Below, piece by piece: positions 21,665 to 60,699 of a stretch of 64,000 bases of DNA. The position numbers were made by a program, and so were the translations under genes. The notes beneath the pieces were generated by a model. The model did no database searches and was not told the DNA's origin. It was given only the letters and a program-made list of their open reading frames with translations. How positions within the stretch are numbered: the stretch's first letter is position 1; the number at the start of each line of letters is the position of its first letter. Source of the stretch: Stictocephala bisonia (lineage: Eukaryota; Arthropoda; Insecta; Hemiptera; Membracidae); contig JAQJVL010000124.1 of assembly GCA_035578905.1 (NCBI GenBank), positions 1,924,616 to 1,988,615 on the forward strand. Reading direction: 5' to 3'.

Positions 21665-22680
21665 CTAATCGTCGTAAAGCTGGCTGCCCTTGACCAAGTC
21701 AAGGAGCTTCTTCGCTAGATTGGTAATTTCCAACTGTCCCAGAGGTGAGCCTTCAAAAAGTGCCCTTCTTCTGGCACCAAGAGCCTCACACTCCAGGACA
21801 ATGTGTTCTGCCGACTCTTCGTCCTCCCCACAGAGGCGACAGATGGGATCCTCCGCAAAGAGTCCTACCGTTCTTAAATGCCTCCGGAATTTTCCGTGGC
21901 CGGTGATGAGTCCCACCACCAGCCTAACGTGCGATTTGTTTAGTCCAAGAAGTGACTTTGTCAACTTCTGGGAGGGCTTCTTGACAAGAACCTTGCCGAG
22001 TCTTTGCCCTGGGAACCGCCGCCATCTTTCCAGATGTCTGGCGCTGACCCAGTTTTTAATTGCTGCTTTGGCAGCTGCAATCGAAACGCCGCAGGCCGGC
22101 TCAGGACCAGTGAAGGGCTTGAGAGCCCCCTCCCTAGCCAAGGCATCGGCCTGCTCGTTGCCTTCTAGTCCCCTATGTCCTGGGATCCATTCCAGCGAGA
22201 CCTGGTTTCTTGATCCCAGGATACTGAGGGTCTCCACGCATTCCCAGACTAGACCAGACGAGACCTTCCAGGAGTCCAGAGCCCCTAAGGCCGCTTGACT
22301 GTCTGAGAGGATGCGGATGTATTTCCCACAAACCCCTCTCTCGACCGCCTGGGCGGCACAATGAAGGATTGCGGTGACTTCAGCTTGGAAGACGGTGCCA
22401 TACGCTCCCAGGCTCACGCTAGCGTTGGTCCTAGGGTTGCCAGTATAGACGCCAAATCCAGCTCTGTTGCCCATTCTAGACCCGTCTGTGAACCACACAA
22501 CTCGGTCGTGAGAAGAAACCGGGCTACCAACACCGTCCCAGTACTCCCTCGACCTGAGGTCCACAGTATAGGGTCTAGCGAAAAAGAGCTTAGTCCCAAC
22601 AAAGTCAGACTTCATTGAGAGTATCTCGTCATTTACTAGATTGGTCACTGAGGAGTGACCTGTGCAGGACCCCTCCAGTG
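21665..22680 (-). pseudogene. LINE ORF2 part 5: RNase H domain and C-terminal CCHC-like motif
   Basis: RNase H type I signature residues are all visible: VVWFTDGSRM (Asp), FQAEVTAIL (Glu), ILSDSQAAL (Asp) and WIPGHRGLEGNEQADALA (His and final Asp). After a spacer with GPEPACGV, the tail has LVVGLITGHGKFRRHL and CRLCGEDEESAEHIVLEC, a Cys-Cys-His-Cys cluster common at the C-terminus of these elements. The domain removes the RNA strand during reverse transcription. It is the longest intact frame in the copy (stop at 21665-21667). The 3' UTR is only about 95 nt. Confidence 0.93.
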
Positions 22681-23028
22681 GCCAGTTAGCTGAAGCCTAT
22701 AAGCCGCCACCCGAGCCTCCCCAATAATGAAGAGATCAAGGGGTGGCAGGTTGAGAAGAACCTCCAGTGCAATAGAAGGGGTCGACCTAAAGGCCCCTGT
22801 CATGCACATGCAGGCAAGTCTTTGTAGGCTAGAAAGCCTACCCCGAACTGTTACCTGGTTGACCTTAGGCCACCAGATCAAAGCCCCGTAAGTAATTTGT
22901 GGTCTGATGACCGCTGTGTAAAGCCAGTGGCAGACATGGGGTGACAGGCCCCATGTAGAGCCCACACAGCGCCTAGTGGTCACAAAGGACCACTTAGCTC
23001 TGCGGATGACTTTATCAAGATGCAAGTT
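22680..23028 (-). pseudogene. LINE ORF2 part 4: thumb / connection region
   Basis: In frame with the RT core beyond the premature TGA. It reads HLDKVIRRAKWSF, TRRCVGSTWGLSPHVCHWLYTAVIRPQITYGALIWWPKV and LQRLACMCMTGAFRSTPSIALEVLLNLPPLDLFI, the hallmark thumb/connection sequence of R1/LOA/I elements (YTAVIRP..TYGALIWWP, then TGA.RSTP..ALE.LL.LPPLDL). The frame is lost around 22680, shortly after RLQLTGHW; sequence matching the expected GHSS motif continues one frame over and leads into the RNase H domain. Confidence 0.9.
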
Positions 23029-23650
23029 TCATGTCAGTTTCTGATCAAGGATTACTCCCAGATACTTAACCGACGATGAAACAGGCAGAGACACTCCACC
23101 AAGGGCCAGGCCTCTGAAGGAGCCCTGAACCCTTTTCCTGGTGAAGGGAACTATTACTGTCTTGGAAGGGTTTATTGCAAGCCCTTCTCGTACACACCAG
23201 GAGTTCACTGCTTCCAGACTGTCGTTCATGATGTCCGTAACAGTGCCCTGGTACTTGCCACGGACCAGTAGGACAAGATCGTCCGCATAGCCCTGTATGA
23301 AAATACCCTTATCCGTGAGGCTGACTAGGATATCATCCACCACCAGGTCCCACAGGAGGGGTGATAGAACTCCCCCCTGCGGGCATCCTCGGCTCGCAGA
23401 AATCTCCACCACCTCACTTAGAAGGGTTGATTGAATTCTTCTGCCCCGTAACATGTGGTCGACCCACCTACAGATGGTAGGCTCTACACCACGTTGTCCC
23501 AGCGCACGAATAATTGACTGATATGAGGTGTTGTTGAATGCCCCCTCAATATCCAAAAAGGCTCCTAGAGCAATTTCTTTGTTCTCCAGGGAATGTTCAA
23601 GGTGCCTGACCAAACAATGGAGGGCAGACTCACAAGACTTCCCCGGGAGA
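23029..23650 (-). pseudogene. LINE ORF2 part 3: reverse transcriptase catalytic core
   Basis: Contains ALGAFLDIEGAFNNTS (motif A with catalytic Asp), SRGCPQGGVLSPLLWDLV (motif B), GYADDLVLLV (motif C, the catalytic YADD box intact), the AINPSKT motif and VKYLGVILDQKLT (motif E region). The open frame ends with TGA at 23029-23031, exactly where R1-type elements have Trp after KLT. The next in-frame codons continue the protein, so this is a single nonsense substitution, not a natural end. Confidence 0.92.
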
Positions 23651-24543
23651 TACGCATGTTGATTTCGATGTAAAGGGAGTCTTTAAGCGCCCCTTCTCGA
23701 ATGTGAAATTCAACGAGTCTCTCCATGGTCTTCACCAGAAACGAGGAAAGACTAATTGGCTTAAAGGATTTGGCGTTTGTGTAGTCGCCACGACCCCGCT
23801 TAGGAATGAAGACTACTTTGCTAACCCTCCAAGACTGAGGAATATACCCGAGGGCAAGGCTCGCCCTGAAGATTTCGCAAAGTAGAAAGTGGAGGTTCGG
23901 TGGGCCCTTCTGCAACAATGCAGGAAAGACGCCATCGCCTCCTGGGGATTTAAATGGGCTGAACTTGTCGATTGCCCATTTAACTTTGGAAACGGTGACT
24001 ATACGTCTAGCTTGCCTCCAGTCCTCTCGAGTTGCCCTAGGTATAGGGCTAGTCTCTCGAGGGCCAGAGACTTCCAGAGCATCGTCAACGATATTCCCTG
24101 GGAAGTGACACTCCAGAAGGAGCTTGAGCGTTTCACCAGGTAAAGTTGTCAATTCCCCTGAGCTGGTTCTAAGACTGCCCATGGGGTTGATAGGTTCGCT
24201 AGCCAAGATTTTCTGGATTCTGGCTGCCTCTTTGATGGAGTCAATGCCCCTACAAAAGGTTTGCCATGAAGCCTTCTTGGCATCATGAATGGATGAATGA
24301 ATGGATGAATTGTAGTCGTTAAGAGCTAAACGATACTCTTCTCGACAATTGGTCACCTTAGAGCGATTAAAAAGCATTCTAACGCGCCTTTTCTTAGCTT
24401 CCAGGGATTTTGTCCACCACCCGATTTTTGGTCTAGGCGGTGTGTTTGAAATTGGACAGTTGTCATGGTAACTTTCGAGGATCGCATCCTGTAAACAGGA
24501 TGCCGCCTGCTCTAGTTCCACGACAGACCTTATTCGTACTCCA
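23650..24543 (-). pseudogene. LINE ORF2 part 2: linker and N-terminal reverse transcriptase
   Basis: After the poly-G frame change this frame reads VRIRSVVELEQAASCL, then a basic linker (WWTKSLEAKKRRVRMLFNR) typical of the region between endonuclease and RT. RT fingers follow: SPFKSPGGDGVFPALLQ (motif 1), PQSWRVSKVVFIPKRGRG (motif 2) and SFKPISLSSFLVKTMERLV (motif 2a). The frame is lost by a 1-nt shift near 23665, after EGALKDS; the expected RT sequence resumes in the next frame. Codon use is more GC-rich than the flanks, as in other R1-like elements. Confidence 0.88.
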
Positions 24544-24555
24544 CCCCCCCCCCCC

Positions 24556-25326
24556 GGGACCCAATCCCGCGATGGCCGAAAGTTCCGCAGCATAGGACTC
24601 CCAGTCCGTCCGCCTAGGATTTCGGTGAGGAGAGAAAAAGGCTGACATTTTAGCTTTGATATCAAAGCGAATGTACAGATGATCTGAAAGAGAAGGTTCG
24701 TCAGAGACCCGCCAGTTGTCAATGAGGCCTAGAGTGACCGCATTGCAAAGGGTCAGGTCTATGACTTCGGCTCTGACTCTATTCTTAAATGTGGGTTCAT
24801 TGCCCCGATTTAGTATGAATAAGTCATTGGATACGATGAAGTTTAATAGGTACTCACCCCTCCTGTTGGAGTCGGTTGATCCCCATGCTTCATGATGAGC
24901 ATTGGCGTCGCAGCTGACCAGAAGGTGCCGCCCCCCAATGGATTGTTTATCAACCAGGGCTTCGAGTTCCCTGGAAGGGGGTGGGTCCTGAGCATCATAG
25001 GGAAGGTACACAGAGCTGACGGTGAACTCCCCATGCCCTTCCTCCGTGCTCAGTGTCATTCTCACTGTCGTGATGTCCCTGGAACAGAAATCAAACAGGG
25101 GAAATACTTCCATACCATTACGTACCAAGATACATGTCCTAGCATTATTGGTGGAACAAGAGGAAATCATCTTACCTTTTGCATCGGCCAGTCCTGCGAT
25201 TCTGCCCTTGTGTAACCAAGGTTCCTGAATCAGGGCCAGGTCGATGTTATGTGCAGTCATGGACTGACAGAGGGCTGCCGAGGCAGCCTTACTGTGGTGC
25301 AGATTGGCTTGAATCACCCTTGGCAT
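24556..25326 (-). pseudogene. LINE ORF2 part 1: apurinic-like endonuclease (EEP fold)
   Basis: The frame starts MPRVIQANLHHSKAA, the usual N-terminus of R1/LOA-type ORF2, where the conserved Asn of the first endonuclease motif lies. Further motifs follow: LIQEPWL (catalytic Glu), the SVYLPYD strand, SCDANAHHEAWGS (Asp/Asn pair), EVIDLTLCN and the terminal SDHLYI motif with its catalytic Asp-His. This enzyme nicks target DNA to prime reverse transcription. All key residues I can place are present. The true frame runs into a 12-G tract (coding strand) at 24544-24555; reading continues in a different frame beyond it, so ORF2 is shifted in this copy or the homopolymer length is mis-assembled. Confidence 0.9.
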
Positions 25327-25350
25327 TGTCCCTAGCCAGCCAAGTTGGAG

Positions 25351-26149: not shown

Positions 26150-29100
26150 TTAAACAGAATAACAACGTGTAGTATGAAGGGTAGCAACATGCAGTAGACA
26201 GGAGAGCAACACGCTTTGGAAAGTTGTAAAAATGCCATGAGTACGATAGGAACATGCAGTGGACACGAGAGTAACGAGCATTGCGGAGGTTGTATAAACA
26301 TGCTATGAGTAAGACAACAACGTACAGTGGACACAAGAGTAACGAGCATTGCGGAGGTTGTATAAACATGCTATAAGCAGGACAACAACGTACAGTAGAC
26401 ACGAGAGTAACGAGCATTGCGGAGGTTGTATAAACATGCTATGAGTAGGACAACAACGTACAGTAGACACGAGAGTAACGAGCATTGCGGAGGTTGTATA
26501 AACATGCTATGAGTAGGACAACAACGTACAGTAGACACGAAAGTAACGAGCATTGCGGAGGTTGTATAAACATGCTATGAGTAGGACAACAACGTACAGT
26601 AGACACGAGAGTAACGAGCATTGGGGAGGTTGTATAAACATGCTATGAGTAGGACAACAACGTACAGTAGACACGAGAGTAACGAGCATTGCGGAGGTTG
26701 TATAAACATGCTATGAGTAGGACAACAACGTACAGTAGACACGAGAGTAACGAGCATTGCGGAGGTTGTATAAACATGCTATAAGCAAGACAACAACGTA
26801 CAGTAGACACGAGAGTAACGAGCATTGCGGAGGTTGTATAAACATGCTATAAGCAGGACAACAACGTACAGTAGACACGAGAGTAACGAGCATTGCGGAG
26901 GTTGTATAAACATGCTATGAGTAGGACAACAACGTACAGTAGACACGAGAGTAACGAGCATTGCGGAGGTTGTATAAACATGCTATGAGTAGGACAACAA
27001 CGTACAGTAGACACGAGAGTAACGAGCATTGCGGAGGTTGTATAAACATGCTATGAGCAGGACAACAACGTACAGTAGACACGAGAGTAACGAGCATTGC
27101 GGAGGTTGTATAAACATGCTATGAGTAGGACAACAACGTACAGTGGACACGAGAGTAACGAGCATTGCGGAGGTTTGTATAAATGNNNNNNNNNNNNNNN
27201 NNNNNNNNNNNNNNNNNNNNNNNNNNNNNNNNNNNNNNNNNNNNNNNNNNNNNNNNNNNNNNNNNNNNNNNNNNNNNNNNNNNNNNNNNNNNNNNNNNNN
27301 NNNNNNNNNNNNNNNNNNNNNNNNNNNNNNNNNNNNNNNNNNNNNNNNNNNNNNNNNNNNNNNNNNNNNNNNNNNNNNNNNNNNNNNNNNNNNNNNNNNN
27401 NNNNNNNNNNNNNNNNNNNNNNNNNNNNNNNNNNNNNNNNNNNNNNNNNNNNNNNNNNNNNNNNNNNNNNNNNNNNNNNNNNNNNNNNNNNNNNNNNNNN
27501 NNNNNNNNNNNNNNNNNNNNNNNNNNNNNNNNNNNNNNNNNNNNNNNNNNNNNNNNNNNNNNNNNNNNNNNNNNNNNNNNNNNNNNNNNNNNNNNNNNNN
27601 NNNNNNNNNNNNNNNNNNNNNNNNNNNNNNNNNNNNNNNNNNNNNNNNNNNNNNNNNNNNNNNNNNNNNNNNNNNNNNNNNNNNNNNNNNNNNNNNNNNN
27701 NNNNNNNNTTGCGGAGGTTGTATAAACATGCTATGAGTAGGACAACAACGTACAGTAGACACGAGAGTAACGAGCATTGCGGAGGTTGTATAAACATGCT
27801 ATGAGTAGGACAACAACGTACAGTGAACACGAGAGTAACGAGCATTGGGAAGGTTGTATAAACATGCTATGAGTAGGACAACAACGTACAGTGGACACGA
27901 GAGTAACGAGCACTAGGGAGGTTGTATAAACATGCTATGAGCAGGACAACAACGTACAGTGGACACGAGAGTAACGAGCATTGGGGAGGTTGTATAAACA
28001 TGCTATGAGCAGGACAACAACGTACCGTGGACACGAGAGTAACGAGCATTGGGGAGGTTGTATAAACATGCTATGAGCAGGACAACAACGTACAGTGGAC
28101 ACAAGAGTAACGAGCATTGGGGAGGTTGTATAAACATGCTATGAGCAGGAGAACAACGTACCGTGGACACGAGAGTAACGAGCATTGGGGAGGTTGTATA
28201 AACATGCTATGAGCAGGAGAACAACGTACCGTGGACACGAGAGTAACGAGCATTGGGGAGGTTGTATAAACATGCTATGAGCAGGACAACAACGTACAGT
28301 AGACACGAGAGTAACGAGCATTGCGGAGGTTGTATAAACATGCTATGAGTAGGACAACAACGTACAGTAGACACGAGAGTAACGAGCATTGCGGAGGTTG
28401 TATAAACATGCTATGAGTAGGACAACAACGTACAGTAGACACGAGAGTAACGAGCATTGCGGAGGTTGTATAAACATGCTATGAGCAGGACAACAACGTA
28501 CAGTAGACACGAGAGTAACGAGCATTGCGGAGGTTGTATAAACATGCTATGAGTAGGACAACAACGTACAGTGGACACAAGAGTAACGAGCATTGCGGAG
28601 GTTGTATAAACATGCTATAAGCAGGACAACAACGTACAGTGGACACAAGAGTAAAGAGCATTGGGGAGGTTGTATAAACATGCTATGAGCAGGACAACAA
28701 CGTACAGTGGACACAAGAGTAACGAGCATTGGGGAGGTTGTATAAACATGCTATGAGCAGGACAACAACGTACAGTAGACACGAGAGTAACGAGCACTGG
28801 GGAGGTTGTATAAACATGCTATGAGCAGGACAAAAACGTACAGTAGACACGAGAGTAACGAGCATTGCGGAGGTTGTATTAACATGCTATGAGCAGGACA
28901 ACAACGTACCGTGGACACGAGAAAAACGAGCATTGGGGAGGTTGTATAAACATGCTATGAGCAGGACAACAACGTACAGTGGACACAAGAGTAACGAGCA
29001 TTGGGGAGGTTGTATAAACATGCTATGAGTAGGACAACAACGTACAGTGGACACAAGAGTAACGAGCATTGGGGAGGTTGTATAAACATGCTATGAGTAG

Positions 29101-32062
29101 GACAACAACGTACAGTAGACACAAGAGTAACGAGCATTGGGGAGGTTGTATAAACATACTATGAGCAGGACAACAACGTACAGTGGACACAAGAGTAACG
29201 AGTATTGGGGAGGTTGTATAAACAAGCTATAAGCAGGACAACAACGTACAGTGGACACAAGAGTAACGAGCATTGGGGAGGTTGTATAAACATGCTATGA
29301 GCAGGACAACAACGTACAGTGGACACAAGAGTAACGAGCATTGCGGAGGTTGTATAAACATGCTATAAGCAGGACAACAACGTACAGTGGACACAAGAGT
29401 AACGAGCATTGGGGAGGTTGTGTAAACATGCTATGAGTAGGACAACAACGTACAGTGGACACAAGAGTAACGAGCATTGGGGAGGTTGTATAAACATACT
29501 ATGAGTAGGACAACAACGTACAGTGGACACAAGAGTAACGAGCATTGGGGAGGTTGTATAAACATGCTATGAGTAGGACAACAACGTACAGTGGACACAA
29601 GAGTAACGAGCATTGGGGAGGTTGTATAAACATGCTATGAGTAGGACAACAACGTACAGTGGACACAAGAGTAACGAGCATTGGGGAGGTTGTATAAACA
29701 TGCTATGAGCAGGACAACAACGTACAGTAGACACAAGAGTAACGAGCATTGGGGAGGTTGTATAAACATGCTATAAGCAGGACAACAACGTACAGTGGAC
29801 ACAAGAGTAACGAGCATTGGGGAGGTTGTATAAACATGCTATGAGCAGGACAACAACGTACAGTGGACACAAGAGTAACGAGCATTGGGGAGGTTGTATA
29901 AACATGCTATGAGTAGGACAACAACGTACAGTAGACACGAGAGTAACGAGCACTGGGGAGGTTGTATAAACATGCTATGAGCAGGACAACAACGTACCGT
30001 GGACACGAGAACAACGAGCATTGGGGAGGTTGTATAAACATGCTATGAACAGGACAACAACGTACAGTGGATACAAGAGTAACGAGCATTGGGGAGGTTG
30101 TATAAACATGCTATGAGCAGGACAACAACGTACCGTGGACACGAGAACAACGAGCATTGGGGAGGTTGTATAAACATGCTATGAGCAGGACAACAACGTA
30201 CAGTGAACACGAGAGTAACGAGCTTTGGGGAGGTTGTACAAACATGCTGTGAGCAACAAAAACGTGCCATGAACACGAGAGTAACGAGCATTGGGCAGGT
30301 TGTATAAACATGCTATGAGCAGGACAACAACGTACCGTGGACACGAGAGCAACGACCATTGGGGAGGTTGTATAAACATGCTTTGAGCAGGATAACAACG
30401 CACAATGGACACAAGCATTGGGGAGGTTGTATAAACATGCTATGAGCAAGACAAAAACGTACCGTGAACACGAGAGCAACGAGCATTGGGGAGGTTGTAC
30501 AAACATGCTATGAGCAGGACAACAACGTACAGTGGACACGAGAGTAACGAGCATTGGGGAGGTTGTATAAACATGCTATGAGCAGGACAAAAACGTACAG
30601 TGAACACGAGAGTAACGAGCATTGGGGAGGTTGTATAAACATGCTATGAGCAGGACAACAACGTACAGTGAACACGAGAGTAACGAGCATTGGAGAGGTT
30701 GTATAAACATGCTGTAAGCAGGACAACAACGTACAGTGGACACAAGAGTAACGAGCATTGGGGTGGTTGTATAAACATGCTATGAGTAGGACAACAACGT
30801 ACAGTAGACACGAGAGTAACGAGCATTGGGAAGGTTGTATAAACATGCTATAAGCAGGACAACAACGTACAGTGGACACGAGAACAACGAGCATTGGGGA
30901 GGTTGTATAAACATGCTATGAGCAGGACAAAAACGTACAGTGGACACAAGAGTAACGAGCATTGGGGAGGTTGTATAAACATGCTATGAGTAGGACAACA
31001 ACGTACAGTAGACACAAGAGTAACGAGCATTGGGGAGGTTGTATAAACATGCTATGAGTAGGACAACAACGTACAGTAGACACGAGAGTAACGAGCACTG
31101 GGGAGGTTGTATAAACATGCAATGAGCGGGACAACAACGTACAGTGGACACAAGAGTAACGAGCATTGGGGTGGTTGTATAAACATGCTATGAGTAGGAC
31201 AACAACGTACAGTAGACACGAGAGTAACGAGCATTGGGAAGGTTGTATAAACATACTATGAGTAGGACAACAACGTACAGTAGACACGAGAGTAACGAGC
31301 ACTGGGGAGGTTGTATAAACATGCTATGAGCAGGACAAAAACGTACAGTGAACACGAGAGTAACGAGCATTGGGGAGGTTGTATAAACATGCTATGAGCA
31401 GGACAACAACGTACAGTGGACACAAGAGTAACGAGCACTGGGGAGGTTGTATAAACATGCTATGAGCAGGACATTAACGTACAGTGGACACAAGAGTAAC
31501 GAGCATTGGGGAGGTTGTATAAACATGCTATGAGCAGGACAACAACGTACAGTGGACACAAGAGTAACGAGCATTGGGGAGGTTGTATAAACATGCTATG
31601 AGCAGGACAAAAACGTACAGTGGACACAAGAGTAACGAGCATTGGGGAGGTTGTATAAACATGCTATGAGTAGGACAACAACGTACAGTGAACACGAGAG
31701 TAACGAGCATTGGGGAGGTTGTATAAACATGCTATAAGCAGGACAACAACGTACAGTGGACACAAGAGTAACGAGCATTGGGGAGGTTGTATAAACATGC
31801 TATGAGTAGGACAACAACGTACAGTGAACACGAGAGTAACGAGCATTGGGGAGGTTGTATAAACATGCTATGAGTAGGACAACAACGTACAGTAGACACG
31901 AGAGTAACGAGCATTGGGAAGGTTGTATAAACATGCTATAAGCAGGACAACAACGTACAGTGGACACAAGAGTAACGAGCATTGGGGTGGTTGTATAAAC
32001 ATGCTATGAGTAGGACAACAACGTACAGTAGACACGAGAGTAACGAGCATTGGGAAGGTTGT
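26150..32062. repeat. 68-bp satellite array, about 86 units including an N gap
   Basis: A repeat unit of exactly 68 bp containing GTACAGTRGACACRAGAGTA, ACGAGCATTGSGGAGGTTGT and ATAAACATGCTATGAG. Degenerate units mark the left edge (26150-26280). Units to about 28560 mostly carry GCGGAGG and TAGACACGAG; later units mostly GGGGAGG and TGGACACAAG. Since 68 is not a multiple of 3 and each phase is open for about 60 codons on the minus strand, a ladder of spurious 60-codon frames appears. Confidence 0.97.
27186..27708. other. Assembly gap (523 Ns) inside the 68-bp satellite
   Basis: Both sides are the same satellite unit, so the gap is unresolved array; its true length is unknown. Confidence 0.99.
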
Positions 32063-33470
32063 ATAAATATACCATGATTAGGATTACAGCGTACTTTTTT
32101 AGGACGTTTTATAAACATGCCAAGAATATGAGTTCGACGTGCTATTTGGGGATATTTTATAAACATGCCACGAATATGAGTACGACGTGCTTTTTGGGGA
32201 CGTTTTATAAACATACCACGAATATGAGTACAACGTGCTTTTTGGTGACGTTTTATAAACATGCCACAAATATGAGTACGACATGCTTTTTGGTGACGTT
32301 TTATAAACATGCCATTAATATGAGTGCGACATGCTTTTTGGAGACGTTTTATAAACATACCAGGAATATGAGTACAACGTGATTTTTGGTGACGTTTTAT
32401 AAACATGCCACGAATATGAGTACGACGTGCTTTTTGGTGACGTTTTATAAACATGCCACAAATATGAGTATGACATGCTTTTTGGTGACGTTTTATAAAC
32501 ATGCCACGAATATGAGTACGACGTGCTTTTTGGTGACGTTTTATAAACGTTCCATGAATATGAGTGCAACCTGCTTTTTGGGGACATCTTATAAACATGC
32601 CACTAATTTGAGTACGACGTGCTTTTTGGCGACGTTTTATAAACATGCCACAAATATGAGTACGACACGCTTTTTGGTGACGTTTTAAAAACATGCCATT
32701 ATTATGAGTACGACATGCTTTTTGAGACGTTTTATAAACATGCCACGATTATGAGTACGACATGCTTTTTGGAGACGTTTTATAAACATGCCACGAATAT
32801 GAGTACGACGTGCTTTTTGGGGAAGTTTTATAAACATGCCACGAATATGAGTACAACGTGCTTTTTGGTGACGTTTTATAAACATGCCACGAATATGAGT
32901 ACGACGTGCTTTTTGGTGACGTTTTATAAACATGCCACGAATATGAGTACGACGTGCTTTTTGGTGACGTTTTATAAACATGCCACGAATATGAGTACAA
33001 CGTGCTTTTTGGTGACGTTTTATAAACATGCCACGAATATGAGTACAACGTGCTTTTTGGTGACGTTTTATAAACATGCCACGAATATGAGTACGACGTG
33101 CTTTTTGGTGAAGTTTTATAAACATGCCACGAATATGAGTACAACGTGCTTTTTGGTGACGTTTTATAAACATGCCACGAATATGAGTACAACGTGCTTT
33201 TTGGTGACGTTTTATAAACATGCCACGAATATGAGTACGACGTGCTTTTTGGTGACGTTTTATAAACGTACCATGAATATGAGTGCAACGTGCTTTTTGG
33301 TGACGTTTTATAAACGTACCATGAATATGAGTGCAACGTGCTTTTTGGGGACGTCTTATAAACATGCCACTAATAGAAGTACGACGTGCTTTTTGGGGAT
33401 GTTTTATAAACATGCCACTAATAGAAGTACGACGTGCTTTTGGGGGACGTTTTATAAACATATTATTATC
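32063..33470. repeat. 48-bp minisatellite array, about 29 units
   Basis: Units contain ACGTTTTATAAACATGCCAC, GAATATGAGTACGACGTG and CTTTTTGGTG. The period is a multiple of 3, so long fortuitous frames occur on both strands (FYKHATNMSTTCFLVT on plus, MFIKRHQKARRTHIRG on minus; up to 293 codons). It directly abuts the 68-bp satellite, and both share ATAAACATGC and an ACRACGT block. Confidence 0.95.
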
Positions 33471-44797: not shown

Positions 44798-45847
44798 CTA
44801 AATAGATAGATTTTTTCCATTATAAATTTTCGGACGCTGTAACAAGCAAGATTTATTAAGTGTTTTTTGATTTTTTTTTCTAAACTTAGTTAGGCTTGAT
44901 TCCAGCCTGAGTGAAAGTGGAAGATGGTTAAACAAATTAATGCCATTGTAACACAAGTTGTTTTTGTAAAAAGATGTTGAATGTTTAGGGATAGATAATT
45001 TGTTGAGATTACGTAAAGAATAGAGTGATTTTACTGAGAAGTTAAATTTGGAAAAGTTTTGTCTGACAAATGTTAATGTTTCAAGTATGGAAAAAATGAG
45101 TGTCAGTATTTGTGACTCGTGGAAAGTGTTTTTACAGGATTGCCGTTTATTAAGAGAAAAAACAGTTCTCACAGCCCATTTTTGAAGCCTAAACAAAGCC
45201 AAGGTGTGTTTATTTTCGTGACCCCAGATAGGGACAGCGTACGATAAGTGGGGGTATATGAGTCCATAATACGCTGTTAATAGAACCTCGCAGTTTACAA
45301 AGTTTTTTTGGCTTCGCAGAACAAATATTCCCGAGCTGAGCCTTCTAGAGACATGCTCAATATGGGTGCGAAAACTGAGTTTCTCACCCAACATCAGTCC
45401 CAAGAACTTTACACTGTCAGTTGGGAAAATCGTGGTTTCATCCAAGAGAAGGGGAACCCCGAGGTTAGATCTCTTCGACAGGGAAAATTTTATTAGTTGG
45501 GTTTTGTCGGAATTGATAGCAAGTAGGCTGTCATCAAACCACTGAATAAGCTTATTGGCCTCCATAAAGGCAACATGTTCCAAATCTTCAAAATTAGAGC
45601 TAGGTATAGAAAGGGAGGTATCGTCCGTAAATAGCGACAGTTTGGAATCCGAAGTCCATGAGGAAAGGATAAAAAGAAGAAATAGAGTAGGGCCCAGAAC
45701 AGAGCCCTGAGGCACTCCCCTTAAGATGGTAGCCTCTTCAGAGGTGTAGAAACGCACTTGCCCAGCATCATCCACTGCCTTAATCTCCACATATTGCCTT
45801 CTACCACGAAGGTATGAAGCAATCCAATCCAAAGCCACTCCACGCAC
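44798..45847 (-). pseudogene. CR1/Jockey-type RT core and thumb (349 codons open)
   Basis: This is the longest intact frame of the decayed LINE. It carries motif B (GVPQGSVLGPTLFLLF), motif C with both catalytic Asp residues but FTDD in place of YADD, motif D/E (INSDKTQLIKF, VKFLGLMLG) and the thumb (AYYGLIYPHLSYAVPIWG). It lacks motif A, which is just upstream in another frame, so it cannot encode an active enzyme alone. Confidence 0.85.
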
Positions 45848-45905
45848 CCCATACCACTAATCCTTTCCAATAATTAGCCATGTTCGACCAAGTCAAAGGC
45901 TTTAC

Positions 45906-46235
45906 TTAAATCGAAAAAAGCCCAGCTGAATGGTTCTTAGTGTCTAGCTGTTTTACTACATAATTGACGAGGTTAAACATGGCTGTTGTCGTGGTCTTAT
46001 TCTTTACAAATCCATGCTGGTTCTCATAAAGTATTTCATTTTGTTCCAAAAAGTCCCTTAACCTAATCAGCATGACTTTCTCAAATATTTTCGAAAAAGT
46101 GGATACCAGAGATATAGGCCTATAACTATTGCAGCTTCTTGAATTACCTTTCTTATAGACTGGTCTTATCTTTGAAACCCTTAAATTTGAAGGGAATATC
46201 CCATTTATAAATGACAAATTTATAAAGTGGCACAA
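45906..46235 (-). pseudogene. CR1/Jockey-type RT finger fragment
   Basis: 109 codons with the usual finger order: CHFINLSFINGIFPSNLRVSKIRPVYKKGN, NSYRPISLVSTFSKIFEKVM and FLEQNEILYENQHGFVKNKTTTTAMFNLV. The frame ends by frameshift in the run of Ts just before motif A. Same LINE copy as 44798-45847. Confidence 0.85.
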
Positions 46236-46264
46236 CGGTTTTAAAAGGTGTGATGATACTTTTT

Positions 46265-46367
46265 AAGCCTTAAGCCCATACGGAGGCCAGGGCGTATGGG
46301 CTTAAGGCAGAGCCCACTGACGAGACCTGTTGCCGGTCGAAACGCCGCGTGTTGTAGACTAAACATG
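46265..46367 (+). mobile_element. 103-bp ribozyme-bearing retroposed insertion
   Basis: This segment interrupts the minus-strand CR1-like LINE. It is bounded by 11-bp direct repeats (TGATACTTTTT at 46254-46264 and 46368-46378). On either side the LINE protein resumes (SPFLIKK before, LLKPLCHFINLSF after, one frame over), so it is a genuine insertion. It contains the hammerhead plus a perfect 16-bp inverted repeat (46267-46282 with 46293-46308), and ends GTTGTAGACTAAACATG. It may be a truncated piece of a Penelope-like element or an animal retrozyme; no reverse transcriptase is present. Confidence 0.75.
46291..46346 (+). ncRNA. Type III hammerhead ribozyme
   Basis: All conserved hammerhead elements occur in order. 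Stem III 5' strand GGCGT (46291-46295) is followed by the unpaired nucleotide A (46296), giving a GUA cleavage triplet. Stem I is a hairpin TGGGCT (46297-46302) / AGCCCA (46311-46316) with an 8-nt loop. The core box CTGACGA (46317-46323) fits CUGANGA. Stem II is GACC (46324-46327) / GGTC (46335-46338) with a 7-nt loop. The GAAA box (46339-46342) leads into stem III 3' strand CGCC (46343-46346), which with the last A of GAAA pairs fully with GGCGT. Hammerheads are known in Penelope-like elements and retrozymes of animals. Cleavage is predicted after 46296. Activity is untested, and an overlapping inverted repeat may compete. Confidence 0.85.
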
Positions 46368-46494
46368 TGATACTTTTTTATTAGAAAGGGAGATAATTCA
46401 TTAGTTCCGGCACACTTTTTGTTTGATGGTACGAATATATTATTATTTAATTTTATTAACTTGTAAAAATAAAGTTTGTTTGACGATATCATTT

Positions 46495-52384: not shown

Positions 52385-52832
52385 ATCTGTACCCATACAC
52401 GTACATTGACAGTGACCCACCCGCCCATCCTTACACGTACATTGGCAGTGACCCACCCGCCCACCCATACACGTACATTGACAGTGACCCACCCGCCCAC
52501 CCATACACGTACATTGGCAGTGAACCACCCGCCCACCTATACACGTACATTGACAGTGACCCACCCGCCCACCCATATACGTACATTGGCACTGATCCAC
52601 CCGCCCACCCATACACGTACATTGGCACTGATCCACCCGCCCACCCATACACGTACATTGCCACTGATCCACCCGCCCACCCATAAACGTACATTGCCAC
52701 TGATCCACCCGCCCACCCATACACGTACATTGGCAGTGACCCACCCGCCCACCCATACACGTACATTAACATTGACCCACCCGCCCACCCATACACGTAC
52801 ACTGACAGTGACCCACCCGCCCACGCATAACG
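52385..52832. repeat. 36-bp minisatellite array 1, about 12 units
   Basis: Units contain CCATACACGTACATTGRCAG and TGACCCACCCGCCCAC. Variation is mostly in the GGCAGTGAC/GACAGTGAC/GCCACTGAT block. The period is divisible by 3, giving open frames on both strands (THTRTLTVTHPP; VYGWAGGSVPMY) that are not supported as genes. Confidence 0.95.
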
Positions 52833-53379
52833 TACATTGGCAGTCACCTTATAGTCTACAAGAATCATAATTATATTAGGTATAATAATAAATATTTAAC
52901 AATTTTTGCCACCCACAATATTTTATTACATTATGTATTATGCAGTTTCAGTAAATGTTGTAATCCAACAGTGATTGATGATAACGAAGTGCCATTAAGT
53001 TGATACGTGCAATTTTAAACACTGTCAGTTAACTGACAAATGCCAATACTAAATAAACATTGATACTAGTAAATTTGTATGGTAGTTAGTAATAATTGTT
53101 ATATTTTTATGGATTCCTGTTACTTGAATATATTTCAACATAGATTATGATTGATAGATTGGTGTAGTGTAATAACCTTATACTACAGTATAACATTAAT
53201 AATTATCATTGTTTTATTTATAAATTAGAATACAAACCAGTGAAACTCTATAATATTATTACAATTAATTTTAAATGTTGAATGAGGCAGTTAGTAACTC
53301 CTGAACACGACACCGAGTTTGTAAAACACTTCAAGCGTTGGACATTTTAAAAAGATGTACCACTCATGAACTATCAAAA
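52833..53379. other. AT-rich spacer between the two 36-bp arrays
   Basis: No gene or repeat recognised. Confidence 0.5.
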
Positions 53380-53382
53380 AGG

Positions 53383-53990
53383 CAACAGTGGTATTGACTC
53401 ACCAACCTACCCATACATGTACAGTGGTATTGACTTACCAACCTACCCATACATGTACAGTGGTATTGACTTACCAACCTACCCATACATGTACAGTGGT
53501 ATTGACTCACCAACCTACCCATACATGTACAGTGGTATTGACTTACCAACCTACCCATACATGTACAGTGGTATTGACTTACCAACCTACCCATACATGT
53601 ACAGTGGTATTGACTTACCAACCTACCCATACATGTACAGTGGTATTGACTTACCAACCTACCCATACATGTACAGTGGTATTGACTTACCAACCTACCC
53701 ATACATGTACAGTGGTATTGACTTACCAACCTACCCAAACATGTACAGTGGTATTGACTTACCAATCTACCCATACATGTACAGTGGTATTGACTTACCA
53801 ACCTACCCATACATGTACAGTGGTATTGACTCACCAACCTACCCATACATGTACAGTGGTATTGACTTACCAACCTACCCATACATGTACAGTGGTATTG
53901 ACTTACCAACCTACCCATACATGTACAGTGGTATTGACTCACCAACCTACCCATACATGTACAGTGGTATTAACCATCTACCTAACCACC
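53383..53990. repeat. 36-bp minisatellite array 2, about 17 units
   Basis: Units contain GGTATTGACTYACCAACCTA and CCCATACATGTACAGT and are very homogeneous. The unit aligns to array 1 with the same length and about 10 differences. An open frame from 53366 to 54217 (+, 283 codons, SGIDLPTYPYMY repeats) runs about 75 codons past the array but no gene is supported. Confidence 0.95.
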
Positions 53991-54223
53991 CATACATGAT
54001 CATTGGTCATGTCAAGATATCTGCGTTTGTTTCACGTCACGTTTACTTCGTTTGTTGGTTGGTAGGTGGGCTTGTCTTCGAGACCCCTCCGTTAGGTCTC
54101 ATTACTATGGTAAAGGTGACAAACATCAACAAAGTACTTCATGGAAGAAACTATCAAACAACAGTTGTTAGATTTTATGATCTTAGACCCAATGAGTTTT
54201 ATTATTCTCAAACTTAAAACCTT

Positions 54224-55515
54224 TCCATAAAGACTCAACTAGTGCGAACAAATGTGTGGTGAAGTACGTTGTGTGGCCAGAAGACTAAGGTAGTAAATAG
54301 AGGTGTGGAGATGTACGTTGTGTGGCCAAGAAGACTCAAGTAGTGAATAGAGGTCTGGTGAAGTACGTTGTGTGACCAAGAAAACTCAGTTAGTAAGAGA
54401 AGAGGTTCCGAAGTTCGTTGTTTAGTGAAGGAGACTCAGCTAGTGAGAACAAAGTTGTGGTGAAATACGTTGAGTGGCCAAGGAGACTCAGCTAGTGAGA
54501 ACAGATGTGTGGTGAAATACGTTGTATGACCAAGGAGACTTAGGTAGTGAGAACAGTGGTGTTGTGAAGTACGTTGTGTGGCCAAGGAGACTCAGGAAGT
54601 GAATTGATGTGGTGAAGTACGTTGTATGACCAAGGAAACTCAGTTAGTAAGAGAAGAGGTTCCGAAGTTCGTTGTTTGTGAAGGAGAATCAGCTAGTGAG
54701 AACGAAGGTGTGGTGAAGTACGTTGTGTGGCCAAAGAGATTCAGGTAGTGAATAGATGTGGTGAAGTACGTTGTATGACCAAGGAGACTTAGGTAGTGAG
54801 AACAGAGGTGTGGTGAAGTACGTTGTGTGGCCAAGGAGACTCAGCTAGTGAGAACAGATGTGTGGTGAAATACGTTGTATGACCAAGGAGACTTAGGTAG
54901 TGAGAACAGAGGTGTGGAGATGTACGTTGTTTGGCCAAGGAGGCTCAAGTAGTGAATAGAGGTGTGGTGAAGTACGTTGTATGACCAAGGAAACTCAGTT
55001 AGTAAGAGAAGAGGTTCCGAAGTTCGTTGTTTAGTGAAGGAGAATCAGCTAGTGAGAACGAAGGTGTGGTGAAGTACGTTGTGTGGCCAAGGAGACTTAG
55101 GTAGTGAGAACAGTGGTGTTGTGAAGTACGTTGTGGCCAAGGAGACTCAGGTAGTGAATAGATGTGGTGAAGTACGTTGTATGACCAAGGAGACTTACGT
55201 AGTGAGAACAGAGGTGTGGTGAAGTACGTTGTGTGGCCAATGAAACTCAGCTAGTGAGAACAGTGGTGTGATGAAGTACGTTGTGTGGCCAAGGAGACTT
55301 AGGTAGTGAGAACAGAGGTGTAATGAAGTACGTTGTGTGGCCAAGGAGACTCAGGTAGTGAATAGAGGTGTGGTTAAGAACGTTGTATGACCAAGGAGAC
55401 TCAGTTAGTAAGAGAAGAGGTTCCGAACTTAGTTGTTTAGCGAAGGAGACTCGACTAATGAGAATAGAGGTGTGGTGAAGTTTGTTGTGTGGCTAACTCA
55501 GGGAGCTGATTTCCT
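54224..55515 (+). repeat. Minisatellite of about 51 bp, forward orientation
   Basis: Units contain GTGGTGAAGTACGTTGTGTG, GCCAAGGAGACTCAG and TAGTGAGAACAGAG, with an alternative unit type (AAGAGGTTCCGAAGTTCGTT) at about 54401, 54656, 55010 and 55417. The last unit runs into TGGCTAACTCAGGGAGCTGA at 55490-55509. Confidence 0.93.
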
Positions 55516-57602: not shown

Positions 57603-57857
57603 TTATATTACCATTTTAATATTCAGTGGCTCCCCAATAAAATGTAAATACTCGTTTATGTTACAAAATTCTAGTTGGGTCAAAAATTTTTTAAGACGGT
57701 TCTTAAACGTCTTAAACGGTGTTTTAACATTTTTAGTAAATTCTGGTGGACTGTTAATTATGCGAACACCCACCAGGCAATCAGCTCTCTGAGCTAGCCA
57801 TACAACGAACTTTATCACACCTCTGTTCCTACTAGCTGACTCTCCTTGGTTACACAA
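57603..57857 (-). pseudogene. CR1-type LINE C-terminal fragment at the edge of a minisatellite
   Basis: The minus-strand frame (84 codons) includes VGVRIINSPPEFTKNVK, FKTFKNRLKKFLTQ and FCNINEYLHFIG, the RT C-terminal pattern (G.kiyN.LP..ik, FK..LK.fL, FY.i.Eyl) of CR1-like elements. Its N-terminal codons (GESASRNRGVIKFVVWLAQRADCLVG) merge directly with the 50-bp repeat array at 57.8-60.2 kb, which seems to be amplified from this same sequence. Confidence 0.7.
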
Positions 57858-60245
57858 CGAACTTCACCCCACCTCTATTCACTAGCTGAGTCTTATTGGT
57901 AACACAACGAACTTCACCACACCTCTATTCACTAGCTGAGTCTTATTGGTTACACAACGAACTTCACCACACCTCTATTCACTAGCTGAGTCTTATTGGT
58001 CACACAATGAACTTCACCACACCTCTATTCACTAGCTGAGTCTTATTGGTAACACAACGAACATCACCCCACATCTATTCACTAGCTGAGTCTTATTGGT
58101 AACACAACGAACTTCACCCCACATCTATTCACTAGCTGAGTCTTATTGGTAACACAACGAACTTCACCCCACATCTATTCACTAGCTGAGTCTTATTGGT
58201 AACACAACGAACTTCACCCCACATCTATTCACTAGCTGAGTCTTATTGGTCACACAACGAACTTCACCCCACATCTATTCACTAGCTGAGTCTTATTGGT
58301 AACACAACGAACTTCACCCCACATCTATTCACTAGCTGAGTCTTATTGGTAACACAACGAACTTCACCCCACATCTATTCACTAGCTGAGTCTTATTGGT
58401 AACACAACGAACTTCACCCCACATCTATTCACTAGCTGAGTCTTATTGGTCACACAACGAACTTCACCCCACATCTATTCACTAGCTGAGTCTTATTGGT
58501 CACACAACGAACTTCACCCCACATCTATTCACTAGCTGAGTCTTATTGGTAACACAACGAACTTCACCCCACATCTATTCACTAGCTGAGTCCTATTGGT
58601 AACACAACGAACTTCACCCCACATCTATTCACTAGCTGAGTCTTATTGGTAACACAACGAACTTCACCCCACATCTATTCACTAGCTGAGTCTTATTGGT
58701 TACACAACGAACTTCACCACACCTCTATTCACTAGCTGAGTCTTATTGGTTACACAACGAACTTCACCACACCTCTATTCACTAGCTGAGTCTTATTGGT
58801 CACACAACGAACTTCACCCCACATCTATTCAATAGCTGACTCTTATTGGTAACACAAAGAACTTCATAACACCTCTATTCATTACTTGGCTCTTATTGGT
58901 TACACAACGAACTTCATCACACCTCCATTCATTACCTGGGTCTTATTGGTTACACAACGAACTTCATCACACCTCTATTCATTAGCTGAGTCTTATGGTT
59001 ACCAACGACCTTCACCCCACCTCTATTCATTACCTGGGTCTTATTGGTTACACAAAGAATTTCATCACACCTCTATTCATTACCTGGGTCTTATTGGTTA
59101 CACAACGAACTTAATCACAACTCTATTCATTAGCTGAGTCTTATGGTTACCAACGAACTTCACCCCACCTCTATACATTACCTGGGTCTTATTGGTTACA
59201 CAACGAACTTCACCACACCTATATTCATTACCTGGGTCTTATTGGTTACACAACGAACTTCACCCCAACTCTATTCATTACCTGGGTCTTATTGGTTACA
59301 CAACAAACTTCCCCACACCTATATTCATTACCTGGGTCTTTTTGGTTACACAACGAACTTCACCACACCTCTTTTCAATACCTGGATTTTATTGGTTACA
59401 CAACGAACGTCAACACACCTCTTTTCATTAGCTCAATCTCCTTAGTCACACAAAACAAACTTCATCACACCTCTATTCACTAGCTGGGTCTCCTTGGTCA
59501 CACAACGAACTTCACCCCACCTCTATTCACTAGCTGACTCTTATTACTTACACAACGAACTTCACCAAACCTCTATTCATTAGCTGAGTCTTATTGGTTA
59601 CACAACGAACATGAACACACCCCTTTTCATTACCTGGGTCTTATTGGTTACACAACGAACTTCAACACACCTTTTTTCATTAGCTCAATCTCCTAAGTTC
59701 CACAAAACGAACTTCATCAAACCTCAATTCACTAGCTGGGTCTCCTGGGTCACACAACGAACTTTCCCACACCTCTATTCACTAGCTGGGTCTCCTTGGT
59801 TACACAATGAACTTCACCACACCTCTATTCATTACCTGACTCTTATTGATTACACAACGAACTTCACCACACCTCTTTTCATTAGCTCAATCTCCTTAGT
59901 CAAATAGAACGAACTTCATCACACCTCTTTTCACTAGCTGGGTCTCCTTGGTCACACAACGAACTTCACCCCACCTCTATTCACTAGCTGGGTCTCCTTG
60001 GTAGCACAACGAACTTCACCACACCTCTATTCATTAGCTCAATCTCCTTAGTCACACAAAACGAACTTCATCACACCTCTATTCACTAGCTGAGTATTAT
60101 TGGTTACACAACGAACTTCATCACACCTCTATTCACTAACTGGGTCTCCTTGGTCAAACAACAAACTTCACCACACCTCTTTTCATTAGCTGAGTCTTAT
60201 TGGTTACACAACGAACTTCATCACACCTCTTTTCATTAGCTGAGT
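57790..60245 (-). repeat. 50-bp minisatellite, about 49 units, inverted relative to the 54.2-55.5 kb array
   Basis: Plus-strand units contain ACACAACGAACTTCACCCC, ACATCTATTCACTAGCTGAG and TCTTATTGGT. The block 58027-58800 is nearly identical unit to unit with an exact 50-bp period; units beyond 58850 are more diverged. The reverse complement of a unit aligns with the forward array (GACTCAGCTAGTGAATAGA, GGTGAAGTTCGTTGTGT). Open frames of up to 100 codons are artefacts. Confidence 0.95.
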
Positions 60246-60699
60246 CTATAAGTTTTTTAAACATCATAAAAAATGACAAAAGTGTCAGTAAGTCTAGGTT
60301 ATTATTTGAAGAGGATTTTTAACTTTTGGAGTACTAAGAAAAGGAGAGTGGAAAATACGTTATCACCATTAAGGTTTACCTAATATATCATAAAGTAATT
60401 GGATGATGTAAAAATTAACCAATGAATAATATACGTACAAAAATTATAAAAAAATTAATTAGAAGTATCAACGAAAACATACAATAGACTCGTCACATAC
60501 CTCTAAATGGTATTGGCTACAAAATGTAAACAACTACATACAAACCTGAAAATTTAAAAATTAAAACTGCTTTATTTTATGAACTGAAATAATAAAACCA
60601 GTCACATATCAAACAAAATAGAGCATAACAGAGATTATATCAAATTAAAAATATTCACCGAAGTATCTTATGGGTTTAAAAACACAGTTAATTTTATCT
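60246..60699. other. AT-rich sequence upstream of the SCYL2 exon
   Basis: No gene recognised; probably intron. Confidence 0.5.

Follow-up and report, generated by a model that had tools for sequence, protein, structure and literature searches.

The 103-bp insert at positions 46265-46367 of the window (the whole 64,000-nucleotide stretch of Stictocephala bisonia DNA analyzed here) is probably a heavily truncated copy of a non-autonomous type III retrozyme that was written into the genome by the reverse transcriptase and endonuclease of a Penelope-like element (PLE). The mobilizing PLE enzyme would be a putative helper; the PLE families examined here appear to be of type I and have no sequence in common with this family. 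The Penelope insertion marks found on 17 of 17 two-arm copies suggest the machinery by which ribozyme-bearing parasites may be moved in animals, and the question of the helper is therefore testable with one protein and one RNA. The family places in a defined animal retroelement a type III hammerhead, a motif that published work reports from plants and viroids, from bacteria and delta-like agents, and from a small number of insect loci. Searches of the open-access literature turned up no element that combines Penelope insertion anatomy with a hammerhead of this type.

Hammerhead motif and its 103-bp insertion

Direct reading of the sequence agreed with the original prediction of a complete type III hammerhead, with all 15 stem pairs standard and the core intact, and the CUGACGA and GAAA boxes and the GUA triplet ending at 46296 were all present as claimed. 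A type I reading of the motif was rejected, no stem I pairing being seen by eye. The four-pair kissing contact between loops I and II (GGCA/UGCC) is a feature that had not been predicted. Features of the region are as follows.

44798-46423, minus: interrupted LINE copy (reverse transcriptase) holding the insert; P0004 homology around the insert
46254-46264, unstranded: left target-site duplication TGATACTTTTT; exact 11-nt direct repeat
46265-46367, plus: 103-bp insert interrupting the reverse-transcriptase ORF of an old LINE, with homology to LINEs on each side
46265-46282, minus: left "arm", a short piece of the ribozyme region in inverted orientation; 46267-46282 is fully complementary to 46293-46308
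46282-46367, plus: 5'-truncated right arm, the last ~86 nt of the family element, ending at 3' end site 1 with no tail
46291-46346, plus: type III hammerhead ribozyme; Rfam match, descriptor simulation, stem pairing, conservation among copies
46291-46295 with 46342-46346, plus: stem III, GGCGU/ACGCC; standard pairs
46296-46297, plus: predicted scissile bond between GUA and U; motif position, and arm 5' ends in L025 and L035 at most 1 nt away
46297-46316, plus: stem-loop I, 6 bp UGGGCU/AGCCCA (46297-46302 with 46311-46316), 8-nt loop UAAGGCAG
46306-46334, plus: predicted kissing contact between GGCA of loop I (46306-46309) and UGCC of loop II (46331-46334); sequence
46324-46338, plus: stem-loop II, 4 bp GACC/GGUC (46324-46327 with 46335-46338), 7-nt loop UGUUGCC
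46368-46378, unstranded: right target-site duplication; exact 11-nt direct repeat

The covariance-model check that accompanied the original prediction succeeded in part. An RF00008 match was found at 46289-46348 with 36.0 bits and an E-value of 2.5e-6 (331 bases searched), but this is below the Rfam gathering score of 48.5, which is a curation threshold and not a structural feature. Because of this difference a gathering-level scan of the whole window listed zero hammerheads, and the best RF00008 score listed genome-wide was 38.2 bits (best 68 of 175091 candidates). A looser descriptor, with stems of at least 4/3/4 pairs and G-U allowed, was applied to both strands of the window, which it matched once, and to one strand of 1500 simulated sequences (63,477 bases each), which together also gave a single match; a 3/3/3 version gave 13 matches in the same 1500 sequences.

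The claimed target-site duplication was verified as an exact 11-bp repeat on either side of the insert. The reverse-transcriptase homology of the interrupted LINE copy resumes beyond the insert, relative P0004 matching 46423-46376 and 46259-45915. When the flanks were joined, none of 120 relatives gave a single alignment across the insertion site, owing to a frame difference between the two sides at the A-run. The GC content of the insert is 57.3%, versus 35.4% and 31.9% in the 2-kb flanks, and 3.0% of 103-bp segments in the window are as GC-rich.

A perfect 16-bp inverted repeat, formed by 46267-46282 and 46293-46308 and absent from the original prediction, overlaps the ribozyme and covers the cleavage strand. 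The predicted fold of the 103-nt insert favors this hairpin at -39.3 versus -31.5 kcal/mol for the hammerhead, the kissing pair not being counted, and all 15 hammerhead pairs appeared in the predicted fold only from starts at or beyond 46286 (starts 46265-46291 tried). The competing hairpin is thus ~8 kcal/mol more stable, and the window copy may therefore not self-cleave from the left end of the insert; a copy transcribed from that end would probably misfold and be an inefficient ribozyme.

The best named relatives of two LINEs in the window are hemipteran (leafhopper; mirid, kissing bug), followed by beetles, ants, and others, and an early guess at a mollusc host was given up on this evidence. 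A GC-rich LINE at 21665-25350 (minus strand) contains endonuclease-like, reverse transcriptase, and RNase H pieces in overlapping frames, with domains assigned partly by eye. Long minisatellite arrays lie at 26185-33461, 52391-55493, and 57802-60247, with periods of 68, 48, 36, and 50-52 bp, and one array is broken by a run of N.

A repeat family with an 857-nt unit

The genome (1.68 Gb, 11,105 contigs) was searched with window positions 46251-46380, and other copies were found as anticipated, with at least 43 matches at E<=0.001 (best 40 of 82 candidates). The proposal that the 103-bp stretch is itself the unit did not hold: among the matches listed, all 42 others start at or beyond 46282 and none covers 46251-46281, the left 31 query bases. 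The insert is the truncated end of a longer repeat family with a unit of 857 nt, measured from cleavage site to cleavage site in L025, and full arms bear a second hammerhead at their 5' end. Arms reach up to ~935 bp, and many copies are head-to-head, with the minus arm on the left, the plus arm on the right, and the ribozymes outermost. Few copies are long: a 240-bp stretch taken from the 5' portion of the unit, used as a query, yielded 20 matches with 17 of 17 candidates scored. The loci read comprise the places of all listed matches, plus L053-L055, which were found through the 5' part of the unit; the resulting copy catalogue is an incomplete one from a single genome, picked by similarity to the window stretch and one unit.

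The L025 unit (positions 2142-2998 of the locus) has a GC content of 52.6% and a predicted folding energy of -366.2 kcal/mol, versus -290.6 +/- 10.9 for 20 shuffles (z -6.95). No stop-to-stop ORF of at least 100 aa was present in L012, the longest ORF in L025, of 147 aa, does not keep that length in the other arm, and no ORF with reverse transcriptase and GIY-YIG was detected in the units read. The genomic copies, with no long shared ORF, accordingly support the earlier view of a non-autonomous, protein-less family in a retroposed insertion. The family has several properties of a retrozyme, being noncoding, with hammerheads at the unit ends and a highly structured RNA. No tandem arrays beyond one unit plus second hammerhead were seen in the loci read.

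Conservation of the ribozyme was assessed in an alignment of 37 units (29 distinct sequences). Standard pairs made up 97.3% of 546 pair cells, falling to 26-46% when partners were slid out of register, and on sequence evidence the kissing loop GGCA/UGCC is paired in 29 of 29 distinct sequences. The expected compensatory stem changes were present as two-sided changes in two pairs and five cells: stem I changed from UA to AU in four sequences, and the first pair of stem II, which occurs as GC, GU, or AU, changed on both sides from GC to AU in one. Covariation across these sequences is present yet modest, since 162 of 500 shuffles matched the number of two-sided pairs, though only 2 of 500 matched the number of two-sided cells. 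The hammerhead was more conserved than the remainder of the unit in 42 of 45 comparisons among ten arms, pairs that are not independent, and in 27 of 28 in an earlier comparison with looser ends. Furthermore, 28 of 36 near-complete motifs (the window and 28 loci) were fully paired and 8 had one or two unpaired positions, a count that requires an exact core and near-complete stems and so places more decayed copies outside it. A chance look-alike in unrelated DNA would be in keeping with a score under the Rfam gathering level; against it stand the simulations, this conservation, the kissing loop, and the pair counts, which render coincidence a virtually negligible explanation.

Several features of the insert, namely its type III hammerhead, its GC-richness, a rod-like inverted repeat, and one open frame per strand, are those expected if part of a viroid-like or deltavirus-like circular RNA (e.g. 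of zeta or epsilon type) had been copied into the genome. Published work describes such agents and, in the genomes of termites and flies, isolated type III hammerheads (PMC7936874, PMC11721086). A viroid-like origin had been entertained from the window alone and was dropped once the genome search showed a family. Such an origin is at odds with a family of many copies whose unit and manner of insertion are consistent, a peptide search with both open frames returned no matches, and the inverted arms are explained by insertion, making it very unlikely. Searches of viral contigs, genome contigs, and phages likewise returned no matches, and plasmids gave only two chance matches of 25 and 23 bases. 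Beyond hammerheads, Rfam searches of six loci returned only one mir-1397 match, located over a junction palindrome; on the minus strand of L034 one hammerhead scored better as type I. No tRNA was found in the four loci examined.

L017 and L023 were considered as an autonomous version of the element and rejected, both adjoining a LINE ORF1-like zinc-knuckle gene identified by eye. A type III unit adjoins a LINE ORF1-like zinc-knuckle gene also in L029 (2742-6256) and L030 (2525-5148), which have ~2.6 kb in common at 96%, and this is perhaps a LINE copy carrying the insert along. L053 and L054 are older relatives (~65-70% identity) in which the hammerheads are decayed and the form with two arms and one tail is kept.

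Two-arm insertions and the origin of arm ends

Seventeen two-arm elements have both outer ends in the 3' region (L009, L010, L012 twice, L013, L014, L019, L022, L024, L025, L031, L033-L035, and L053-L055), representing 16 independent cases because the two L012 elements are one duplication. A target duplication of 8-15 bp is present in 17/17 and is 11-13 bp long in 15/17. There are two types of outer end, one at CAT/ACA, ~20 nt beyond the hammerhead, and one lying another 32-35 nt out, near CTTAACGT. In 17/17 elements exactly one arm is tailed, with a 3' tail of ~32-35 nt; the tail call in L054 is only just over the score threshold. The copies thus show the Penelope type of insertion, with head-to-head arms in one duplication and a tail on one arm. 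Since this insertion mode occurs in copies without an ORF for reverse transcriptase and GIY-YIG, the family is described as moved by a PLE rather than as being one.

Other copies depart from the two-arm form. L016 is a simple one-arm, 5'-truncated insertion with a duplication, and at its left element end GGGGGCCAGGG/GGGAAAGTG-like pieces recur ahead of the unit, as slippage or jumping by the reverse transcriptase would produce. The left arm of L011, as in the window copy, begins inside the unit. Duplications were doubtful at L020 and L021 and were not found at L015, L017, L018, L023, L026, or L028. Sixteen bases of the right flank of L012 recur at L012:1223-1238, ~110 bp to the left of the 11-bp duplication.

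Target duplications, 5' truncation, and the LINEs in the window are also compatible with a LINE-mobilised SINE, in which L1- or CR1-like target-primed reverse transcription would generate inverted pieces through twin priming or through snap-back of the cDNA. The window duplication contains a T-run, which would fit an L1-like nick if the RNA were read on the minus strand. However, no poly(A) or simple-repeat 3' tail was present at the ends read, and the two 3' ends lie ~32-35 nt apart, one per arm in 17/17, with 3' ends outward, whereas the outer ends would be identical if one cDNA had snapped back on itself. LINE mobilization is for these reasons considered unlikely. Snap-back as the source of the inverted arms was rejected for the family, since outer ends differ by the tail in 17/17, and it may have produced the 18-nt stub seen in the window copy.

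The inner ends bear on the template. L025 consists of two full arms head-to-head around 56 bp of AT-rich DNA foreign to the unit. Its plus (right) arm starts exactly at the first base past the predicted scissile bond, and its minus (left) arm and the plus (right) arm of L035 start at most 1 nt from this bond; the L035 junction may alternatively be read as a 2-nt deletion. The other inner ends located in the hammerhead fall 7-20 nt past the bond, at +8 in L012 (two copies, one duplication), +7 in L055, +12 in L015, and +8 and +20 in the two arms of L031. None of the six full-unit arms that reach the 5' hammerhead (two each in L025 and L012, and one each in L015 and L031) extends more than 1 nt 5' of the bond. 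The three arm starts within 1 nt of the bond suggest cleavage in vivo and provide a genomic hint that the ribozyme may be used. The simplest reading of the inner ends suggests that the template would be a linear RNA cut by its upstream hammerhead.

Long inverted repeats and duplications of 8-15 bp would also be seen in a foldback or MITE-like DNA transposon with a hammerhead in its terminal inverted repeats by chance. This origin is extremely unlikely, as the outer ends of the arms differ by the tail, three inner ends are at the RNA cleavage site, and the duplication is intact even where one arm is reduced to a stub of 18 nt (window) or is absent (L016). A Helitron hairpin was likewise set aside, the target duplication arguing against it.

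Under mobilization by a PLE, a tandem or dimeric unit RNA would self-cleave at its upstream hammerhead, leaving a 5' end equivalent to U46297. The PLE protein would then begin reverse transcription at one of two sites, ~20 and ~55 nt past the downstream hammerhead, and both cut target strands would be extended, one arm per start site, giving head-to-head arms with the duplication outside. In the window copy, truncation would have left ~86 nt of one arm and, of the other, an inverted stub of 18 nt. A bolder proposal, which is tentative and judged more doubtful than probable, is that the family represents an animal retrozyme of the plant or viroid type, a type III hammerhead RNA of ~857 nt that would be cut to unit length, perhaps made circular and amplified at the RNA level, and that would parasitise in trans a Penelope reverse transcriptase with which it has no recognisable sequence in common, with its arms arising from two start sites. 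If this is true, two start sites on two target strands would make the puzzling Penelope tail an integration rule.

Penelope-type elements and known retrozymes

Endonuclease-bearing Penelope elements are described as having inverted pLTRs, 9-10-bp target duplications, a 31-bp tail on one pLTR, and junction palindromes, and Penelope apparently mobilises other sequences in trans via pLTRs (PMC3846280). The Penelope protein of the green anole is reported to use two neighboring internal reverse transcription start sites, matching the tail, and to cleave and extend both target strands; the study found no RNA ends at the hammerhead cleavage site (PMC11167929). By these accounts, Penelope-like elements and the present family have in common head-to-head arms, duplications of ~9-13 bp, a 30-40-nt tail on one arm, junction palindromes, and a hammerhead located close to where the terminal repeat ends on its 3' side (PMC3846280, PMC11167929). 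In contrast, Penelope-like hammerheads are described as minimal type I, whereas the family carries type III and has no sequence similarity to the PLEs of this genome that were examined.

Metazoan retrozymes are described as carrying type I hammerheads and measuring ~150-450 nt, the hammerheads of Penelope are described as minimal type I, and a PLE has been proposed as the retrozyme helper without a sequence signature (PMC7229834, PMC7761336, PMC11722881). One review states that animal retrozyme repeats contain no motif revealing an autonomous element (PMC7761336). The family resembles metazoan non-LTR retrozymes in being non-autonomous and noncoding, with a hammerhead and a highly self-paired RNA (PMC7229834, PMC7761336), and in having target duplications longer than 4 bp and co-existing PLEs. 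It differs from them in its type III hammerhead, 857-nt length, GC content of 52.6%, and head-to-head PLE-style insertions, the metazoan elements being described as type I tandem repeats of ~150-450 bp with GC below 50%.

The plant LTR retrozymes share with the family a type III hammerhead with a 6-bp stem I, a 6-8-nt loop, and a 4-bp stem II (PMC7229834, PMC7936874, PMC11722881), as well as two hammerheads ~600-1000 bp apart and GC-richness (above 55% in plants, 52.6% in the family). By the same accounts, target duplications are 4 bp in the plant elements versus 8-15 bp in the family, and loop II usually has 4 nt in plants versus 7 nt with a kissing pair here. Type III hammerheads have also been described as isolated motifs in the genomes of termites, with similar ones in flies (PMC7936874). 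HDV-like agents and these isolated insect copies have in common with the family type III architecture, an insect genome, and a paired contact between loops I and II, but the HDV-like type described there has a 5-bp stem I, an internal loop, an extra hairpin, and a 6-bp stem II, from which the family differs (PMC7936874).

Within the genome itself, a search for GIY-YIG yielded at least 150 matches, all over the cut-off (best 150 of 4772 candidates), several of them within open 803-aa frames in tandem arrays. A first Pfam scan of two of the 803-aa frames listed RVT_1 and nothing else at E<=0.01. Scanned by itself, the C-terminal piece from one of these frames matched GIY-YIG at 2.9e-7, a match missed by the whole-protein scan at 0.01. 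The ends of Penelope copies scatter into two loose clusters, one 86-109 nt and the other 125-149 nt beyond the box. These are based on 10 rows, with the locus end truncating an eleventh. One head-to-head PLE pair was examined (L049) and has one tailed and one shorter arm and an 11-bp duplication. A hammerhead-like box, minimal type I by eye, lies beside 14 of the 15 GIY-YIG loci read, and Rfam found no hammerhead at E<=1 in four of these Penelope loci, so that the type I label rests on reading by eye. Sequence common to the family and the 15 GIY-YIG loci was limited to short matches with E-values of 0.015 or worse.

Penelope-type tandem arrays with a period of ~2.64 kb and open 803-aa frames were observed at L050-L052 (G000:C1027, C2596, and C2384), and the repeats of L051 are 99.8% identical and therefore probably recent. 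Three further kinds of hammerhead-like box were observed near GIY-YIG (L039/L043, L042, and L044/L046/L048; Rfam found none in L039, L042, and L046), suggesting that several Penelope lineages may live in this genome. A strong self-complementary stretch at L046:1222-1323 gave sub-threshold microRNA-family matches on both strands.
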